DNA of 64,000 nt. Origin: Aurantiochytrium sp. KH105 (taxonomy: Eukaryota > Sar > Bigyra > Thraustochytrida > Thraustochytriidae). The position numbers were made by a program, and so were the translations under genes. The notes below the pieces were generated by a model, which saw only the letters and a program-made list of their open reading frames with translations, had not been told where the DNA came from and searched no databases. Shown piece by piece: positions 32,441 through 61,444 of the stretch (its first letter is position 1; each line of letters starts with the position of its first letter). The stretch spans positions 96,616 through 160,615 of the forward strand of contig BGKB01000153.1 in the NCBI GenBank assembly GCA_003116975.1, in the 5' to 3' direction.

Positions 32441-34540
32441 TTACAATTCTGAGACCTCGACGCGTGCTGCGCCGAGATTTAGCGCAACCTCGAATTTAAG
32501 AGGTGGCTGCGCCATACCCGAGCCCAGTCCATGCCTCGATGCCATCTTGTGTAATGCCTCATTAAATAGATGTGTATTCGGATCTGCTTGCAGACGCACC
32601 GTCAACGACTGTCCTCGCCGGTTTGGAACAGCATTTGCGATAGCTCGTAAGATCGCGGCCATTTGTGGCGCCGCTGTAGGGCCACTTAACTTGAGCGTAT
32701 CCACTTCTCTTGCCTCCCTTCCATGCGCAATTTTCACAAGTCGTGGCACGCTTCGAGGCGGCGCCTGACACATGGCGTGCAAAAATGGCACCGGCGAAAC
32801 GAGCTGTGGGCATTCGTGAAGACCGTTGCGTTGCACGATGCGATTCATGAGTACATTGAATAATCCGTGCACTGCTTGACGCCCCACAAAGCCAAGCAAC
32901 GAGCGTAATCGATCGTCAGAGCCAATCGTGCTCGAGGCGCGCGTAAGCAGAGCACTCCGAGTTGCGCCCGCCCCGCGGCTTGCGCTTGCAGATCTTGAGT
33001 AAGCGCGCAACTCGTCCTGGAGCTCGGGGTCAATCGTAGACATGTCTTTTTCCAGTGAACTGTCCAATGGACATTCGAATTTAACCTGGCAGCGAGTCAA
33101 CTGGCTTCGTAAGCTTGCTGACGACTGCGAGAAGACAGCACAAACGGGCGCCTCCGGGTCCGCGCCAAGTTGTCCGCGGCCCATGAAGAGCCCGATGACT
33201 CCGCTGTCCGGGTCATTGACGTAAAAATATGGGCACTTGTTCTGTTCAAGCAAAGACATGACTGACTTGAACGCCTCACCCCATTTGCATCTCTTGTCAA
33301 ACAGAAAATGCCCTTCCCCGCTGCCTGCTGCCCCTGCGCCGGAACCTGCGTCACCCCCCATATGTCGCCGCGATCCCCTTGCGCCCGCTCCCATTGGTCC
33401 TCCGCCATCTTGCTGCATACCTTCCCCTTGCTGTGACGTTATCGACGTGGTTGCTTGCAAGCCTCCACTTCCTATTCCGCCTATGCCTCGCGATCGCTCG
33501 CCGGCCTCAACTGGGCCGTCTGACGATCCATCCACGCGCTGTTGACAGTGAAGCTTGAAATTTGCAGGCACAATGCTTTGCAGTCGATTTAGGTCGGCCG
33601 CACTTGGCCCTTGTGATGCGGGATACTCAAAATGGCTCAGCAACGATAAGAGATCCCGATCACTGTTGTCTCCGGTGGCAGCCTTGCGAATTCCGGCAAC
33701 AATGTCTTGAGGCATCCACAGCCGCTCTGCCCAATCGAGGCCGTCGCTTTCGTTAGACTCGATTGTCATTGTTTGTGCCAGAGACCAATTAGGAATGTGT
33801 CGTCGCGCTACCTCTGCCAAGGCAACGCGAGGACGTTGCTGTCCGGTGCCCGCTGCAGAAGGCATAAATCCATTGCTTCTTGACATTCCAGTTCCCTCAC
33901 CCCTGCTCAAAGCGCTGCGAAAGTTGCTCATCGACGTCGCGCTTTCCCGACTACTTGCTTGCGCTGCCCCGGCGCTTGCCTTGACGCGAAAAGATGACGA
34001 CGTCAGCGTCGTCGCCGCCTGACCAGCACGACTCGTGTCCATCGCTCCCAAAAAGTCGGCATACAAGTCCATGGAATTGCTGTTCGGTCCAAGAACATCG
34101 TCCACAGGAACGTGATTTACTCGGTTGACCAAGGAGGCCTTCTCGTCGTGGTCATCTTTGGTCTCGGTGGGAGCTTTGTTCCGCTGTATGGTCGATGGCG
34201 ACAGCTGGCGTCTCTTGATGCCACTGCCTTGGGCGTTCTTGGGCACAAAGGACGAAAACGGCGCCGGGCGTTTGCCTGGTCGCCTTCCTCGCCCTTTGGC
34301 CGCAGACAGCGGCGGAGGTTGCGGCGCTGGCTGCCCGCCACGTCCGCCGTCATTCTCCTTGCCCCGTGACTCGCTCTGCGCGGGTCGCTGCTGGCCCTCC
34401 TGCTCCTGGCGAAAGTCCAAATCGTTGCTGCTGCCGCCGCCGCCGTCGTTCTCCTCGTGCTGACCGCCAACCTCTGGCGCCTCCAAGGTCGTCGCCGCCG
34501 ACGCCGCCGTCGCGCTCGCCTCGCCGACCCGGTGAGCCAT
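32441..34540 (-). CDS. DONSON: DONSON homologue (replisome assembly/fork protection factor)
   Basis: 699 residues from the ATG complementary to 34538-34540; the frame extends upstream only through a non-ATG codon. The N-terminal half is disordered (Gly/Gln/Ser-rich; basic KGRGRRPGKRP). The C-terminal half carries DONSON landmarks in order: NWSLAQTMTI, WGEAFKSVMSLLEQNKCPYF followed by YVND (human: [20 protein letters not shown]), GLFNVLMNRIV, LVSPVPFLHAM (human LLSPVAF), and TLKLSGPTAAPQMAAILRAI (human SLEITGPIMPHSLHSL). In vertebrates DONSON brings GINS to loaded MCM2-7 during CMG helicase assembly and protects forks. It is head to head with CDC6 over about 190 bp. No intron is required. Confidence 0.8.
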   Translation of the reverse strand: MAHRVGEASATAASAATTLEAPEVGGQHEENDGGGGSSNDLDFRQEQEGQQRPAQSESRGKENDGGRGGQPAPQPPPLSAAKGRGRRPGKRPAPFSSFVPKNAQGSGIKRRQLSPSTIQRNKAPTETKDDHDEKASLVNRVNHVPVDDVLGPNSNSMDLYADFLGAMDTSRAGQAATTLTSSSFRVKASAGAAQASSRESATSMSNFRSALSRGEGTGMSRSNGFMPSAAGTGQQRPRVALAEVARRHIPNWSLAQTMTIESNESDGLDWAERLWMPQDIVAGIRKAATGDNSDRDLLSLLSHFEYPASQGPSAADLNRLQSIVPANFKLHCQQRVDGSSDGPVEAGERSRGIGGIGSGGLQATTSITSQQGEGMQQDGGGPMGAGARGSRRHMGGDAGSGAGAAGSGEGHFLFDKRCKWGEAFKSVMSLLEQNKCPYFYVNDPDSGVIGLFMGRGQLGADPEAPVCAVFSQSSASLRSQLTRCQVKFECPLDSSLEKDMSTIDPELQDELRAYSRSASASRGAGATRSALLTRASSTIGSDDRLRSLLGFVGRQAVHGLFNVLMNRIVQRNGLHECPQLVSPVPFLHAMCQAPPRSVPRLVKIAHGREAREVDTLKLSGPTAAPQMAAILRAIANAVPNRRGQSLTVRLQADPNTHLFNEALHKMASRHGLGSGMAQPPLKFEVALNLGAARVEVSEL

Positions 34541-34731
34541 CCTTGCACATCTATCTATCTGGACAAGCAGCCTCGCGGCCACGATGCGATGCGCGCAACA
34601 CTCTAAAAATGACTGCGACGGTTAGGTCAGAAGCTACTGCACGACTTAACCGTCACATCGGGCTTGCGCACCATTATCTTGGCCGCACGCAGTTCGGATC
34701 GAGCAAGCGAGGGAGTCCGCACGCACGCAGG
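34541..34731. promoter_or_regulatory. Shared DONSON/CDC6 promoter with an 8-bp inverted repeat
   Basis: The 191 bp between the two start codons contain GACGGTTA at 34617-34624 and its exact reverse complement TAACCGTC at 34647-34654, 22 bp apart. TAACCG fits the MYB-type core (T/C)AACNG. A symmetric site suits coordinate control of both genes. The binding factor is inference. Confidence 0.45.
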
Positions 34732-36297
34732 ATGCCGACCACTCGCGCGCGCACGCAGGCGGCGGCGAGCCAAACGACGAAGACGCTGGCAACGCGCGCT
34801 CCCAAACGCCACCGCGTGGCAGCGCCAGCACCGCGTCGAGGGAGGAGGAAAACGGAGATCTTGGACCAGAACGTGCAGCACAATAGCGCGGCGGCGCCCG
34901 GCGGCTCGCACAAGAAACGCTGTAAGCGCGACGTAGAAGGCATAGGATCGCAAAACAAGACGGAGAAGAGCAAAAGTAAAAAGGCCAAGCTCTCTGTGCC
35001 AGTGCTCTCCGCAGAAGAGGCAGGGATCATTGGCCGTCAAGAGCAGCTTGACGCCGTGCGCGAGTTCCTGCGTAGCCATCTTGAGCTCCGCAAGGGCGGC
35101 TCCCTTTATGTATGCGGCACGACCGGGACGGGAAAGACTGCTTGTGTGCACTATGTGCTTGCGTCAGAGATGGCGCAAGGCGCGGGACGCAAAGGTTCGA
35201 TCAAGGTAGGAAAGTTGAACGGCAACACGCTCGAACGGCCCGGACATATTTACGGAGCGATTCTCAAGGCACTAGGATTCGATTCTTCAATCAACGCAGC
35301 AACCTCAACCGCGCGCGCAGCACTTGAAAAGGTATTGCGTCCTTCGCAAGACGGCCGCGGTCGCAGTGCAAATCCACTCTTCGTGGTGTTGCTCGATGAG
35401 ATCGACCAGCTCATCACCGCAAGCAAGTCGCAAACGGCACGACAAGAGGTGCTGTACCAGCTCTTTCGTTGGGCAAACCTTCCTCGCTCGCGTCTCATCC
35501 TCATCGGGATCGCCAACGCGGTAAATCTTCACGATCGCTTCCTTCCCGAGCTCTTGCGCGAAGGCTATTCCTCGGAAATGCTCGTTTTTCCTGCTTATAA
35601 CAGGGATCAGCTCAAGGCGATTCTGGAGGCGCACACAAGTCGCTTGGCTAGCGAGACCACTTTGGGCAAGGTCCGTTTTGATCCCGTTGGCATTGAGCTT
35701 TGTGCGCGCAAGGTGGCTGCCAAGTCTGGTGATTTGCGAAAGGGCCTCGACATTTGCAAATGTGCGTTGCTTCAAGCTGCACAAGCTGCCCCCCCAACGT
35801 CTTTGCAAGCTGAGAGCACCAGCGAAGATACAACGGGTCGACGAGAAATAGTTGTGGGCGCCGCGACGATGCTTCGGGTCATGCGCTCTGCTCTCGAAGC
35901 AAGCCACATCAAAACCATCACGGAGCTGCCGCTTCAAGTACAGTACGCGCTCTGCGCAATTATCCGACAGCAACGCGCCATCGCACGCGAAGGGAAGCGT
36001 GCGCTCATCGTTAACGACGTCTTCCGCACGTACACCTCCATGACTCGAGAATGGGGTCTCCCCGCGCAGCCTTTTGCGAGCTTCTGCGACTCCTTGCTCG
36101 GGCGCCTCTTCGAGGACGGTCTTGTTGCTCTTGCAGGTAATCCGAAGAAGGAGCTTCGTCAGCGATCGCTCAAGGTCGATGTGCTCGAGGCAGATGCCGT
36201 CAGCGCTCTCGAGGAAAACGTCGCCACCAAGAACCTTCTTTCCGGGAAGTCTCACAGGCACAATGGAGGCGTCAACTTTTACGCTGCTGGGTCTTAG
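34732..36297 (+). CDS. CDC6: CDC6/ORC1-type AAA+ replication licensing ATPase
   Basis: 521 residues from the ATG at 34732 (MPTTRARTQ). An alternative in-frame ATG at 34609 would add 41 residues but would place the promoter inverted repeat inside the coding region. A basic N-terminal tail (residues 1-90; KRHR, RRGRRK, KKRCKR) resembles regulated nuclear tails of Cdc6. AAA+ motifs: Walker A GTTGTGKT (129-136), Walker B VVLLDEID (218-225), sensor 1 IGIANAVN (258-265), sensor 2 SGDLRKGLD with Arg337. A winged-helix domain follows (about 400-505). There is no BAH domain, so Cdc6 is favoured over Orc1. Cdc6 with ORC and Cdt1 loads MCM2-7 at origins in G1. Residues 350-370 form a non-conserved linker. 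Confidence 0.88.
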   Translation: MPTTRARTQAAASQTTKTLATRAPKRHRVAAPAPRRGRRKTEILDQNVQHNSAAAPGGSHKKRCKRDVEGIGSQNKTEKSKSKKAKLSVPVLSAEEAGIIGRQEQLDAVREFLRSHLELRKGGSLYVCGTTGTGKTACVHYVLASEMAQGAGRKGSIKVGKLNGNTLERPGHIYGAILKALGFDSSINAATSTARAALEKVLRPSQDGRGRSANPLFVVLLDEIDQLITASKSQTARQEVLYQLFRWANLPRSRLILIGIANAVNLHDRFLPELLREGYSSEMLVFPAYNRDQLKAILEAHTSRLASETTLGKVRFDPVGIELCARKVAAKSGDLRKGLDICKCALLQAAQAAPPTSLQAESTSEDTTGRREIVVGAATMLRVMRSALEASHIKTITELPLQVQYALCAIIRQQRAIAREGKRALIVNDVFRTYTSMTREWGLPAQPFASFCDSLLGRLFEDGLVALAGNPKKELRQRSLKVDVLEADAVSALEENVATKNLLSGKSHRHNGGVNFYAAGS

Positions 36298-36811
36298 ACT
36301 ACCATTCTCTGCTCTCCCCGCTTGTTTGTCTATCGTAAATGCCAGGCCTTGCCAATCAACATCTGACCCCCCCCCCCAAAAAAAGTCGAATTTGAAGCCA
36401 GCAAGCGATTTGCTCGACACTCGTCTGAACATTTTTTTCCGAGTTGGAAATGTGAACGTGCTTGCTTGTATCAAACATCCAACCCACTTGCCTTTTCTCG
36501 ATCTCATTAGATGATGCTCATGTCACTTCCATCTCTCATGGCGCCCACGGCGGCCTCCGCGCACAGCTTGCATGGATTCTGAAGCTCGCTCAGGCGGTAG
36601 GAGACCCATCGAGAATGGTAAGATGACGCGGCGTTCCAAGACTCAACTTGTGAAGATTGGGCGAAACAAAATTCGACCTCCATATTCGACATGTCGTCGT
36701 TAGGTTCAAGTGCATGCGGCGCGTAGTGCGAGGGGAGGCGCGTGAGATCGGTGACGAACGGGGAAGCGCGAAGTTGGTGGCAGAGCGCAGGTGTCGTACG
36801 CCGAGACAATC
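36298..36811. other. Spacer between CDC6 and the HTH gene, with a weak minus-strand frame
   Basis: A C11-A7 homopolymer pair lies at about 36368-36386. A minus-strand ATG frame at 36507-36692 (61 codons, MSNMEVEFCFAQSS..., ending GSDMSII) has Cys residues (PCKLCAEA) and looks mildly coding, but has no recognised family and could be a 3' exon or chance. I annotate it only here. Confidence 0.3.
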
Positions 36812-38128
36812 ATGCCGGGGCAGCGAACGCTGCGCGGCTTCTTTGGCGTCGGCCCTCCTGTGCGTGGACAAGGTCCTGTCGAGGTCATGGCTCCGACGAA
36901 GAAAATGGCTGGGAGACCCAAGCGCAAGGCGAAACATCCCCCGCCAACGACGAAGAGCGCTCGCCGGGCAAGGCGCGAAGCTTATTCGAAAGCCCGCGGG
37001 CCATCGGCGCCTAGGTCCAGGCCATCGTTGTTGCCGCTGCCCGATTGCCAGTCAAGCGAGGAACTCCGTGAGGAGACTGAAGAATCGACGGCGGCGAGAG
37101 ACGTTGCGGACGATGAGGAGGCCGAGAACCACAAGAATGACAAAGACGACAAAAACAACGAGGACGACGAGGATGACGAAGACGCTCTTCGCATGAACGA
37201 ACCAGCTTCGCGAACCTACAACGTCGTAAGCAATAGCGCCTATTGTGCTCAACTGCAGCGGGCGATCGACATGGTCCTTTGCCGTGGCAAGTTTGCCGGA
37301 CATGCTCCTGTGAGTGTTTCGGAGGCTGCCCGTGTGAACAGCAGGAACGGGATCAAGATCGCGAGGACGACGTTGATTAGTCGCCTAGAAAAGGCGCGCA
37401 ACAACGATGGACAATGCAATATGGCGGCGACTCGCCTGACCAAGCAAGAAGAGGAAAGGCTAGTTAGACTTGTTCTGGATTCGGCCCGTCGCAATTTGCA
37501 TCTTGATGTCAGTATGATCAAGCAAGTTGCACGGGACATTGCCGCACAGCGCAAGGTAAAATTCGTCGCGAGCAATGGCTGGTGGTCGGGCTTCAAACAT
37601 CGCCATCCGGAACTTTTGCAGCGCAATTCTAAGGTCCCGACCTCTAATCGCAATCAGGCGCGTGACTTCGACAATGCCAAGACGTGGTTTGATAAGCTTG
37701 CAGACCACCACACCGAAGTCGGAATCAGACACGAGAAGATTCTGGATCACCTCGGCGAAACAACAGAGAAAGGGCACCAAGGGGGCACTGAGTCTCGCTT
37801 GAGCGACAAGAACCCGGCCTCGCGCGATCCTAGCGAGGAGACGAAGACCAACGAATTGATGAGCAAAATTGCTCATTTACTACGCAGGCTGGATGAGAAG
37901 GACCTTGTCTCTGAGGCGTGCCGGGCCGGCCCTTTTCCTCAGATTGTCAACAACGCCAACATGACCTTCAACATCAACATTTTTCTCAATTGTCCGTCCA
38001 ATGGCGAAATCAATCATGAAGACGCCGAAAAATTCAAACAGAAACTTCTGCATGAGCTCTCCAGACAGATTATTGGAGTGTTATCCCCCCAGATACCCGC
38101 CGTGCCTCAAAATGCCCCAAATGCTTGA
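36812..38128 (+). CDS. CENP-B/pogo-type HTH protein with PIP box and AT-hook; DDE domain missing
   Basis: 438 residues from the ATG at 36812; the frame reaches a GTG at 36791 but no earlier ATG. Residues 4-11, QRTLRGFF, form a perfect PCNA-interacting peptide (QxxLxxFF) at the extreme N-terminus, as in UNG2. KMAGRPKRKAK (31-41) is an AT-hook. Residues 83-125 are acidic. A psq-like HTH (about 143-200) and a Tc5/CENP-B HTH (208-272; LTKQEEERLVRLVLDSARRN through NGWWSGFKHRHPELLQR) follow. In pogo transposases an N-x-DET motif of the DDE nuclease should come next; here KILDHLGETT lies at the matching place, with Gly where the first catalytic Asp would be, and the rest is unrelated. A domesticated DNA-binding protein is likelier than an active transposase. 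Confidence 0.75.
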   Translation: MPGQRTLRGFFGVGPPVRGQGPVEVMAPTKKMAGRPKRKAKHPPPTTKSARRARREAYSKARGPSAPRSRPSLLPLPDCQSSEELREETEESTAARDVADDEEAENHKNDKDDKNNEDDEDDEDALRMNEPASRTYNVVSNSAYCAQLQRAIDMVLCRGKFAGHAPVSVSEAARVNSRNGIKIARTTLISRLEKARNNDGQCNMAATRLTKQEEERLVRLVLDSARRNLHLDVSMIKQVARDIAAQRKVKFVASNGWWSGFKHRHPELLQRNSKVPTSNRNQARDFDNAKTWFDKLADHHTEVGIRHEKILDHLGETTEKGHQGGTESRLSDKNPASRDPSEETKTNELMSKIAHLLRRLDEKDLVSEACRAGPFPQIVNNANMTFNINIFLNCPSNGEINHEDAEKFKQKLLHELSRQIIGVLSPQIPAVPQNAPNA

Positions 38129-53451: not shown

Positions 53452-56400
53452 CGTTGTTCGCTTGCTCGCTGCTCGCTCGCTTGCTTGCTTGCTTGCTGCG
53501 CTACCTCTCGCTGGCCCCGGCCGGCTCCTTGCTCGCCCGCCCGCCTGCCTGCCTGCCTGCCTGCCTGCCTCGCGCCGCTCCGCACTGCCGCCGCTCAGCT
53601 GCTCTGCTTTCTTGCTTTCCCGCCCTGCCCCGGCGCCTCCGAGCCGCAAGCTGCGCACAGTGCGCTGCGGCACTTGCACCGCAGCGCGCACACTGCCACA
53701 ACCGCGCCCCCAAGTCGGGAATGCCGCCTATACTTCACTGACGCCGGCGCGCGCATGCCGCCACCTTCCTTCCTTCACTGGCCTGGCCTGCCTGGCCTGG
53801 CAGCTGACGTGCCAAGGAGTGAGTGACGGGAGAGAACACGGCAAAAAGCAAGCAAGCAAGCAAACGAGCAAGCCCAGCGAAATACAACAGAAGCAGCAGC
53901 GCAGTGCGGAAAAAATGAGGGTGCTAAAGGGACATGGATGAGGGTGGACGGAGGCGCGAGCGACCTGAAAGAGAGAGAGAGATGAGATCATCGTGGTGAG
54001 GATAACAAGGTTGAGGCCAGCTAGCTCAGCTGGCTTGGCTCGTAAGGCAGGATGATGCTTCTTTCGTCATCCTGCTCATTCCTCTGGCAGCATCTATAGA
54101 TGCTGATCTCTTGACAACCTGGATCATAAAAGTCTGTGGGAAATTGAGACGAAAATTTGCGTTGCCACGTTGACTCTCGTCAGCCAGAGACAGGTTGGTA
54201 GAAAGGTTTACTTGTATCCTAAAGTCGCTCTCATCGCGGCCGCGTCAGATCAGCTCGGTTTGCAAATGTTTGCATCGAGAAATCCAAACATTAAAGTTGC
54301 ACCCGACCAAAACTCAGGCAATATTATGTCATGGTGAAAAGTACTCCCACTTTGCATGCACGTGTGCATGCAGAATACCAACAGCATCTGCGTGCCATGC
54401 TATGCTTTAGCGATAGTTATTTCTCTGTCTCTCGAGAATGGCTGCGACGGCAAGGACGTCGTTTCATCTTCACTGTCAGCTGCAGCTGGTCGCCGCCGCA
54501 TCATCTCATGTGAGATTCCGAGGCACCTACTATTCTGTCAGCCTGCAATTGGCCTCAGCCAGCCAATTGCAGGCTGTCGACGAGGCCGCGGAAACCGGGC
54601 TCCTCGACTTTCCTCTGGAAAAAAAAAAAGACACGCCGTGCTCGGTCTCTCAAGAAAAACCTTATTATGACCTTTGGCCCCGCATCGTATACCCGGGCTG
54701 GCTGCCTCGCTTTTGCTGCTGCTGATGCATAAGAAGAAGAGTAAGAGCAAAGGGCCGGGAGTGTCGGCAGCGGCCTCGGCTGCGCCCACATGTCTCAGCT
54801 GCGAGCGCTTTTCAAAAGTTCTTCAAAGGCTTGGCCCAAGGTTTCCAGCTAGCGCTTTAGAGGAAAAACTTTTTACTTTCAACCACCAAGTAAAAAAAGA
54901 CAAGCTTCGAGGAAGAAAGACGTGGTCGCCGGCCACCCCCACTGCTGCTGCAAGGACGAGACGGAGTCAAGCTGTAACCCGAAGAAGCATCTCTCGTTCC
55001 GGAACAAGGGTTAGGGTATGTGCCAAGCCCAGTGCACACCTTTGCTCAGCAAACCTAACCGGTTCGGGGCCATAAACCTAACCTGGCCGTTGGGCTGGGT
55101 CAGGCGCGTTCCCCTCCGACGGTTGATCTTTTTTTTTCTCTCTTTCTTTTTTTCTTTTTTTCCGTTCTTCTTTTTTTTGATGTTATTCTTTCCTTTTGTT
55201 TGGATCTGATCATTCGCGACAATAAACAGCTTGCTCGTTCCGTTTGGTTCTGATCGGGCCTCCCCATTGAGGAGGGTTTTCTATTTCGAGACCCCGTATC
55301 GTCAGGTGGGTTGCGGTCGGCCAGAGGCTGCAGCATGCGGCAGCGGGCGGGTAAGAGATAGCAGATAGCGATGGCCCCGACGTGGCTTGGAGCCGTCTGT
55401 GCGTTGCCGCGCACGTCGGCGCGCGTGGCGACGGCAGCTTCACTGGACGGGAGAGGGGTGCGCGAGACTCCCTTAAGTTGCATATTTCTGCGTTTCCGCG
55501 CGTTGCCTTTGTGAGCAACTGCATCCCCAGCAGCCGTTTGTATTGGTCATCGTCGCTTCGACCTCCTTTCCACGCTTCGCTATCGTTGTCGTCGCGAAAG
55601 CAAGCAAGTGCTTCACCTCTGCGGAGAAGACTATCTACGTGCTCGTGCTCGTGCCCTTACCCGCGCGCATTCCACCTCAGCAGGCGACACTACGGGTTGA
55701 GCCAGGCCCAGAACGTTGAGCACCTTTTTTCCCGTCGATGACTACCACGGGAGGAGCAAGCGAAGCTTGCAATGAACAGGCGCTACCTGAACGAGAGAGG
55801 CATTGAGATGAATACATCTTCGACGCAGTTCGCTCACGCGCAATGTACCGGGGTAAAAGGAATAGATTTGAGGGGGCGCTGAGGTCCTGGTCTTCAAGAC
55901 TCTTGCTGATGCAGATGAAGTCCTCAAGCTTCTCAATGTGAAGAGCACAATGTCTCAAGGTCGTGCACGGAAAGCAAAGCCTGGCAGAGGCTTCTTTACT
56001 TTTCTATCGTCCTTAAACGATGTTTCCTCTAAAGGCTGTGCACCTCNAAAAAAAATAAAAATAAAAATGACAAGTATTGTCGCGAATTTTGCGCGTCACC
56101 TTTTGTTCCCATTTCCTTCCCTTCTGTTGGAGTCATCCCATGCCAGCCCAAGATGAATGATCCCAGCCCCGGCCGAGCACTCGACCCTGCCCGCCGGGCG
56201 CGAACCCCGGCGCCGGGAGCTGTGCAGGCAGCGATGCGGGTAAAGCTGCGCGTCGCGGCCTCGGCCGGTCCGGTGGCCGCTAAACAAACCCCTCGGCCAC
56301 AGCCAGGCAGGTTGGCTGGCCGGCCGGTCTCGGGCGGGCGTGCGGTCCTTCGAGAAAGAACGTTGGGCGGCAACCGGGCTTGCGGCGCGCGACGCAAGTA

Positions 56401-59753: not shown

Positions 59754-59860
59754 TCATGCCCAAGCAGAAGAAGCGGACTGAACAAAGTGGCTGCTGGCTT
59801 GCTTCCCCTGCGGACCCGAAGCCTGGCCGCTGACAGGTTTTGCAAATCCGGTGTGGTTCA

Positions 59861-59897
<37 letters not shown>

Positions 59898-60386
59898 GTG
59901 GACCATGGGGTCTCCGCTCGCAGCTTGCTGGTGTTGGTGCTGCATTTGCTGATGCATCGGAGGTTGGTGAGCTTGTGGGTGTCCTTGCGAGGGCGCGTGC
60001 CACATGGCGTGGGTGCCAGCATACGGATTCTGTCCTTGAAAACCATTCGGGCCTGGCGCGTTGGGCGCCAAATAAGTAGGAGTTTGCTGGCCAGGCGTTG
60101 CATAGGACTGTGAAGAAGGAGAAGGGGTGAAACCGGGCGGGGCTGACCTATCCCCTATTGGTGCGGCCCCGCCTTCGACGTGAACCCACTCTACCTCCCC
60201 TGATGGACCCGACCCGGGTGCTCCACCTTGCGGTGCCATGTTGCCGCCCATGCCCGGGGCGTGCGACCCTGGCATTCCAGGTGAGACTATGTACTGGTGC
60301 TCTGATGCTGCAACGTGCTGGTGCTGCATCGGGTGCTGCATGGCCTGGGGGGAAGTCTGCACAGGGACTTGTGACTGGACCTGTTG

Positions 60387-60417
<31 letters not shown>

Positions 60418-60971
60418 TGTGTCTGCTGACCCGCCTCGTTGCCCAAAGGGCGGGGTGCAGCCTTGTTTGCCGACATGTTCTTGAGAGTCCCGTGGTAGGT
60501 ATTGTAGTTGTCGGTGGTGACAAAGAGATTGAACCCGAGGAGAAAGAGCATTTCAAGCTCGAGCTCATTGATCTCGTTACGCGGGAGACCGCCAACGGCC
60601 GAGTAGTGCGCATTGTCGAGATAGTGGTCGTCAAAGAACTTTGCGGCAAGCAGCGTTGCTGTGATGACTAGCCTGTGCACGTTGAGGGCGTCGAGTGGGA
60701 TGTCCTTGTTGGTGACGAGGCGATCAATGTATATGAGCATGAGAATGAAGCACTCTGTGGAGCAGCCCGAGAACTGGGCAATGCGTTGTAGATAGTCTCC
60801 GAGGGGGATGGAGGGAGCGCGCAGGCCGTGAAACTTGGTCATCTTGGTATTTACAGAGTTTCGGCGCTGCTCTTCTCCTTTACGGACAAGTTCCTCAAGA
60901 ATGGAGGCGATGACCTCGAGAAGTGCCTTGGCTCCAGGCTCCCGCTCGCCCATCATGAGCATGGAGGCCAT
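59754..60971 (-). CDS. U/P-type (PHO80-like) cyclin with polyglutamine tail
   Basis: 405 residues from the ATG complementary to 60969-60971. The cyclin box spans about 15-160. FHGLRAPSIPLGDYLQRIAQ, then ECFILMLIYIDRL, then HRLVITATLLAAKFFDDHYL and VGGLPRNEINELELEMLFLL are diagnostic of PHO80/U-type cyclins (plant CYCU: HRLLITSVMVAAKF, KVGGI...EMN-LE). These cyclins partner a PHO85/CDK-like kinase in phosphate, nutrient or cell-cycle signalling. The C-terminal 230 residues are low complexity: two Gln runs (CAG/CAA DNA at about 60383-60420 and 59862-59895) and Gly/Pro/His/Met-rich stretches, reminiscent of prion-like domains. Such a tail is not part of the core family. Confidence 0.85.
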
Positions 60972-61444
60972 GGTATGCGATGGATCGGTGGGTTGCGCCC
61001 TGCCTCGGCTGGCGCAATTGTATTACCCACTCCAGGAGGCGGATGCGACCACGGTTTGGGGGACCGACCTTTCGAGAGCTTTCGCTTTGGCCAATGTGGA
61101 GTCCGTGGGTGGCGTCGCTGTTATGGCAGCGGCTGCGTGCTGGTTTTCAAGCAGGCCCGCGTCCTCGCGCGCGTGCGCTCGCGGGCTCTGCTTGTGCGGG
61201 TAAAGGTCTTCGTTGCCTCTTGATCACCAGCCACTCATTCGTTCCGGCCGCCTCGTTTTAATTTATGCGCGCGCGGCGTGGCCACTACGCGCGGGCGCGG
61301 GGCGGGGGCGGCGCGCCTCGCCCGCCCGCACTCCGGCTGGGCGCGCGGGGGAAAGGCGCCGGAAGGGGGGAGCCCGCGCAGGTGCGACCGCGCGGCGCCC
61401 GAGCGACCAAGCAAGCCAGCCGCTTGCTCTGCTTCTACTTTACT

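Follow-up and report, generated by a model that had tools for sequence, protein, structure and literature searches.

The stretch of DNA analysed here, to which we refer as the window, comprises 64,000 nucleotides of contig BGKB01000153.1 (C153 below) of Aurantiochytrium sp. KH105. Within it an open reading frame for a DONSON-like protein of 699 aa (32441..34540, minus strand) lies head to head with one for CDC6 of 521 aa (34732..36297, plus strand, reckoned from the ATG at 34732). Both are single open frames, and the 191 bp between their ATGs, 34541..34731, form a candidate bidirectional promoter: the genes are head to head with their starts less than 1 kb apart, and the layout is the same on C75, the contig that we take to be the other haplotype. 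A preliminary description of this DNA had reported two genes facing away from each other across a 191-bp divergent gap, and our open reading frames agree exactly with its coordinates.

That description had also named the genes CDC6 and DONSON, and both names hold up, the second at a weaker level. The CDC6 frame matches human CDC6 (8s0e) at E 4e-40 and the best ORC1 at E 2e-24. In Pfam its AAA match lies above the cut-off and its Cdc6/ORC lid and Cdc6_C matches lie below the curated cut-offs; the protein reads as an AAA+ protein with lid and winged helix, nearer to CDC6 than to ORC1. Since the match to CDC6 is the better of the two and since the genome has another gene of ORC1 type (on C209/C80), which matches BAH weakly, the CDC6 assignment is firm. 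For the DONSON-like protein the only PDB sequence found at E ≤ 1 is DONSON (8q6o, E 0.0021, in two collinear stretches), a profile of the two haplotypes returns the same single match at E 0.0066, and a Pfam search gave no family. This weak but specific match suggests that the protein belongs to the DONSON family. As described in PMC10626419, DONSON has a role in replication initiation and is missing from most fungi, and PMC10801813 terms it a metazoan protein. A DONSON relative in the present organism, beside CDC6, would bear on when that role arose.

By itself the pairing is less special than had been claimed, since closely spaced divergent genes are nothing unusual in the window: four divergent pairs closer than 400 bp, CDC6/DONSON included, occur among the 23 open reading frames picked there. 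Among the literature matches listed there is no CDC6/DONSON pair, and no MYB-type element of replication genes in a protist. Elsewhere in the window, a cyclin-family gene (59757-60971, Pfam PF08613) stands in a short divergent pair with an open reading frame at 61265; its 600-bp upstream region is without GTTARGT, the core word introduced below. The gene after CDC6 (36812-38125) encodes a Tc5-type HTH protein (Pfam HTH_Tnp_Tc5), and about 113 bp 5' of its ATG at 36812 lies a related site, GTCGTTAGGT (36694..36703, plus strand), unchanged in both haplotypes.

Because the replication genes that we searched for mostly occur as pairs on two contigs, we take the assembly to hold both haplotypes. 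C75 carries both genes and the gap, head to head, with proteins 97% identical to those of C153. At the two genes the contigs differ by 3-3.5%, and over aligned blocks of the window by about 6-17%, gaps included, with one repeat block lower; this divergence is high for alleles, and the strain may be a hybrid or very heterozygous. Between the haplotypes a run of 136 bp without substitution (34607..34742) is interrupted by a single 3-bp insertion after 34675, and the remaining gap on the DONSON side, up to 34606, has 8 substitutions. As a footprint the run deserves little weight: it is the second-longest in 7.7 kb, where the eight longest span 107-147 bp.

Inside this run the octamer GACGGTTA occurs at 34617-34624 on the plus strand and at 34647-34654 on the minus strand, 22 bp apart, exactly as the preliminary description had it; these are the only two copies in the 64 kb window, and both arms are unchanged between the haplotypes. 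Shuffled windows contain 0.61 copies on average, and 13 of 100 have at least two. Shuffling the gap 1000 times gives an exact inverted repeat of 8 bp (loop 3-40) in 78 cases, so that such a repeat is not rare; the longer arms seen here, 12 bp with a single mismatch (GACGGTTAGGTC / GACGGTTAAGTC), are rare, being equalled in 9 of 1000. Taken alone, the palindrome is a weak finding. Moreover, it does not recur as a unit: in the 76.0 Mb assembly the pattern ACGGTTAN{10,38}TAACCGT is present at the CDC6/DONSON locus, in both haplotypes, and nowhere else, and the reversed pattern is found at 18 places. The exact 12-mer GACGGTTARGTC likewise shows no excess genome-wide, with 12 copies against 12 for its reversal. 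Since the inverted pair is unique to this locus, we regard the single arm as the recurring unit, in place of the palindromic site first proposed.

Arm a, GCGACGGTTAGGTC (34615..34628, plus strand), lies 74 bp from the DONSON ATG, and its core GTTAGGT recurs at replication promoters. Arm b, GTGACGGTTAAGTC (34643..34656, minus strand), lies 75 bp from the CDC6 ATG at 34732, and the same 14-mer is found 5' of the GINS gene PSF3 on C28. Each arm presents ACYTAAC on the sense strand of the nearer gene: arm a has exact ACCTAAC (GTTAGGT on the other strand), and arm b has the variant ACTTAAC, one change away. This A/G difference between the arms gives the combined core GTTARGT, that is, ACYTAAC.

Does such a word mark other replication genes? 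We chose these by protein family: MCM (16 matches, read as 8 genes), B-family polymerases, PCNA, the RNR large subunit, RFC, GINS and ORC1. Names were checked, PSF3 by Pfam PSF3_N (3e-16), PSF2 by PSF2_N (1e-26), polymerase delta by a PDB match (E 7e-160); the names of the RNR and ORC1-type genes were checked too. The promoter set comprises 21 genes, one haplotype each, taken as the ATG with 558-600 bp upstream; it retains RFC_C6, whose N-terminus looks truncated, and GINS_C210, whose frame opens shortly before the match, and in both of these the upstream piece probably starts inside the gene. Outside the set, for want of a start, are GINS C44/C141 and the B-family polymerases C44/C141, C28, C358 and C33/C47; the RNR matches C40 and C82 were left out. 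The RNR large subunit has at least three divergent relatives besides the best match. As background we used 33 open reading frames, a small set picked by frame length; it is what remains of a first set of 38 after five promoters from motif-selected loci were dropped.

The heptamer ACGGTTA, which derives from the gap alone, occurs within 300 bp upstream in 5 of 21 replication genes against 1 of 33 in the background (Fisher 0.028), and none of 1000 dinucleotide-shuffled sets reaches 5; the carriers are PCNA, RNR1 on C227, GINS PSF3 and two MCM-family genes. The preliminary description had recommended a search of other replication promoters for TAACCGTC, and this search is positive: within 600 bp upstream the word is found in 4 of 21, namely at PCNA, the RNR large subunit on C227, GINS PSF3 and one MCM (at -575). 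A de novo count points to the same sequence, in that ACCTAAC (= GTTAGGT), a heptamer overlapping arm a in its 3' part, ranks first of 3512 heptamers, with 9 of 21 promoters observed (300 bp) and 0.19 expected from shuffles. With the degenerate core GTTARGT we find 11 of 21 against 3 of 33 within 300 bp (p 6e-4; 0 of 1000 shuffle sets reach it), and with GTTARG 18 of 21 against 10 of 33 within 600 bp (p 7e-5), where the p values are optimistic as GTTARGT was chosen after the MCM promoters had been seen. One of the three GTTARGT matches in the background (L049) is an open reading frame divergent from PCNA, with which it has upstream DNA in common. The three promoters without GTTARG in 600 bp belong to RNR large-subunit relatives (L052, L053 and L054, on C235, C168 and C17). 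Both strands are used, and 11 of 18 GTTARGT sites lie 100-290 bp before the ATG. The word AACCACC is enriched as well (10/21 vs 4/33, 600 bp). Where GTTARG is paired the spacing is often 23-26 bp (26 at polymerase delta, L074; 23 and 24 at RNR1, L050; 23 at 55053/55076 in the window; 24 at CDC6/DONSON), and spacings of 48 bp at MCM_C48 (L071) and 11 bp in RNR1 also occur; these are few cases.

The main doubt about the arms is that they could lie in translated CDC6. An in-frame upstream extension of 41 codons (34609..34731, plus strand), which may be 5'UTR and promoter or else coding, begins with an ATG; were CDC6 to start there, the gap would shrink to 68 bp, both arms would fall within the first CDC6 codons, and the likeness to a replication-gene element would be chance. 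The frame is indeed open from 34219 through the gap (stop to stop, 34219-36297), both haplotypes have ATG 34609 in frame with CDC6, and the sole indel, of 3 bp, keeps the frame. Against this, the 41 codons show no substitution, where about three would be expected from the 8% of third codon positions that differ in CDC6 (an argument of little force), and two arms with the replication word would hardly fall by chance into 191 bp when ACGGTTA occurs just once in the other 63.4 kb of the window. We favour the start at 34732 because the N-terminus from there (M-P-x-T-R) resembles what we take to be typical of animal CDC6 N-termini; a PDB search with the N-terminal stretch of CDC6 gave no match. On balance we consider translation of the arms distinctly unlikely.

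Genome-wide, the element appears in two flavours. The 14-mer flavour GYGACGGTTARGTS is found at CDC6/DONSON, PCNA, RNR1 and PSF3, and with one mismatch at MCM_C48, 579 bp upstream; in the whole genome there are 17 matches against 7 for the reversed pattern. Four of its eight haploid loci (where the pairing into loci is inferred) are not at known replication genes, which is about what the control predicts. One (C7:412517, L075/L077) precedes by 351 bp the gene of an acidic protein that contains the PIP-box-like stretch ITAFF, matches no Pfam family and is perhaps a PCNA partner; the others are at a ubiquitin-conjugating enzyme (C51), at a MORN/PUB pair (C84) and near open reading frames with no family above the cut-off (C97). 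The second flavour, GGTCGTTAGGTYG, has 56 matches in this two-haplotype assembly against 5 for the reversed pattern, among them sites at MCM_C48, MCM_C16, polymerase delta, ORC1, one RFC and GINS PSF2. Nine sites that we viewed are not repeat copies, since their flanks are unlike. When the 56 sites are compared with 48 replication-family matches, 11 have one of these no more than 3.5 kb away, where 0.28 would be expected, with the proviso that 9 of the 11 are the genes from which the pattern was drawn or their other haplotype; the two further ones are at PSF2 and inside the polymerase gene on C358. From the 45 sites away from the searched families we fetched two, on C2 and C5, and found three open reading frames there, with no Pfam family.

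The sites also change little between the haplotypes. Over 11 gene pairs the motif windows show 3 changes in 182 positions, where overlapping windows enter twice; for the upstream positions the figure is 545 in 6028, raised by one badly aligned GINS pair. The motif windows were defined on one haplotype with the core present, so that a site lost there goes uncounted, as at GINS PSF2, a pair outside the 182 positions, where GTTAGGT in one haplotype corresponds to GTTAGGC in the other. Among the three changes is one at an RFC gene, from ACCTAAC to ACTTAAC, which is the same alternative as that between arm a and arm b.

Our analysis suggests that the gap is probably a bidirectional promoter and its two arms copies of an element that marks replication genes as part of a MYB-type regulon. 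A MYB/SANT-family protein would bind each arm, and the nearer arm would serve the gene on its side, one site per gene being the simplest reading. The factor would switch on CDC6 and DONSON together with MCM, GINS, PCNA, polymerase delta, RFC and RNR around G1/S, and the two genes would be co-expressed. The inverted order of the arms would then arise because each of two divergent genes has one equally oriented site, and not because a palindrome is read as a unit. The original interpretation, a two-way promoter with a palindromic site, is supported in part. In one respect it gains strength, in that the arm belongs to a word over-represented at replication genes; the palindrome and the pairing turn out less special than it made them.

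How could the same observations arise if the arms served one gene only? The neighbourhood of CDC6 and DONSON would then be an accident of a compact genome, as the other short divergent pairs of the window may suggest, and it would fit that the substitution-free run abuts CDC6 and the substitutions of the gap fall on the DONSON side. On the other hand, there is one arm for each gene, at 74-75 bp and with the same relative orientation, neither arm has changed between the haplotypes, and both products act in replication initiation (for DONSON, as described in PMC10626419), and we judge an element serving a single gene to be rather improbable. Far less probable still is that the words are splicing signals. 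CTAAC is a branch-point-type sequence, so that ACYTAAC could mark branch points of 5'UTR introns, and CYTAAC does lie on the sense strand of the gene at 17 of the 25 GTTARG sites in the 21 promoters. However, the other 8 sites have GTTARG in the sense direction (p 0.11 for the bias), a conserved form extends over 13 bp, more than a branch point spans, and has 56 exact copies against 5, and the word turns up more often at replication genes than before other open reading frames. Because the sites lie on both strands, we think a DNA-binding factor more likely than a signal in RNA or for splicing.

Which factor would read the word? The preliminary description had called the site MYB-like. This label gains support in that ACCTAAC is a published MYB element: GTTAGGT = ACCTAAC is the AC-III element, or element R, which according to PMC3756741 is bound by R2R3-MYBs such as MYB46. 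The core of the plant MYB3R site, AACGG/CCGTT, is in neither arm. Counted against the first background of 38, which still includes the five motif-selected promoters, AACGG shows no clear enrichment at the replication promoters (8/21 vs 11/38), and the same goes for the generic MYB consensus YAACNG, which both arms fit with TAACCG, at 15/21 vs 18/38 within 300 bp (p 0.065). Against the same 38, and again within 300 bp, neither the E2F-like TTSSCGC (5/21 vs 10/38) nor ACGCGT (2/21 vs 3/38) is enriched, and TTGGCGC gives 3/21 vs 1/38 (p 0.12).

More boldly, one may suppose that in this lineage the MYB-type element (GTTARGT, with the flavours GTGACGGTTARGTS and GGTCGTTAGGTYG) replaced E2F as the general G1/S switch, and that CDC6 and DONSON form one two-way unit in which licensing and GINS delivery rise together. 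We put this forward tentatively, as a possibility that we would sooner doubt than accept. If true, a MYB-type word at MCM, ORC1, PCNA, polymerase delta, RFC, GINS and RNR, without an excess of E2F sites, would mean that the G1/S switch is open to rewiring. The element is defined, with 56 GGTCGTTAGGTYG sites, and should be useful for finding the factor and its regulon, and the CDC6/DONSON pair would make a good test promoter, in which a single short gap gives a readout of two initiation genes.

In animals, plants and fungi, E2F/DP and MCB-type G1/S regulons govern MCM, PCNA, RNR and CDC6, and animals use E2F for their G1/S genes. What we describe resembles these regulons in that one cis-element extends over many replication genes, and differs in that the enriched word is MYB-type. 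The plant MSA element offers a second comparison. Like the word found here, it is a short MYB-type element near the starts of cell-cycle genes, in variable number and orientation, as PMC10905365 describes it; unlike our arms it has the core AACGG, and in the same account plant MYB3R proteins drive G2/M and E2F drives G1/S.

A third comparison is with telomere-like words. Teb1 of S. pombe, a MYB-domain protein, binds TTAGGG in the AACCCT box of histone promoters (PMC5128866), so that it too acts at S-phase promoters through a word containing TTAGG, and in plants telo boxes are described 5' of genes whose expression is raised in cycling cells (PMC3022908). GTTAGG is itself contained in TTAGGG-type telomere repeats, and the factor could be a telobox-type MYB (TRF-, TRB- or Teb1-like) that reads a diverged telomere-like word, in place of an R2R3 or 3R MYB. 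We hold this to be unlikely, though worth keeping in view: the telo box TTAGGG/CCCTAA is in none of 22 promoters (those of the 21 genes plus the gap), and the base after GTTAGG is mostly T and never G in the sites listed. The genes differ as well, being replication enzymes here and histones in the Teb1 case (PMC5128866).

The fourth comparison, with the plant AC-III element or element R, returns us to an R2R3-type site. The heptamer is identical at arm a and in 9 of the 21 replication promoters (300 bp), and arm b departs from it by one change. The targets, however, are quite different. Those that PMC3756741 names in plants are lignin, secondary-wall and disease-resistance genes, whereas in the present organism, which we take to be unicellular, the same heptamer stands before the genes of DNA replication.
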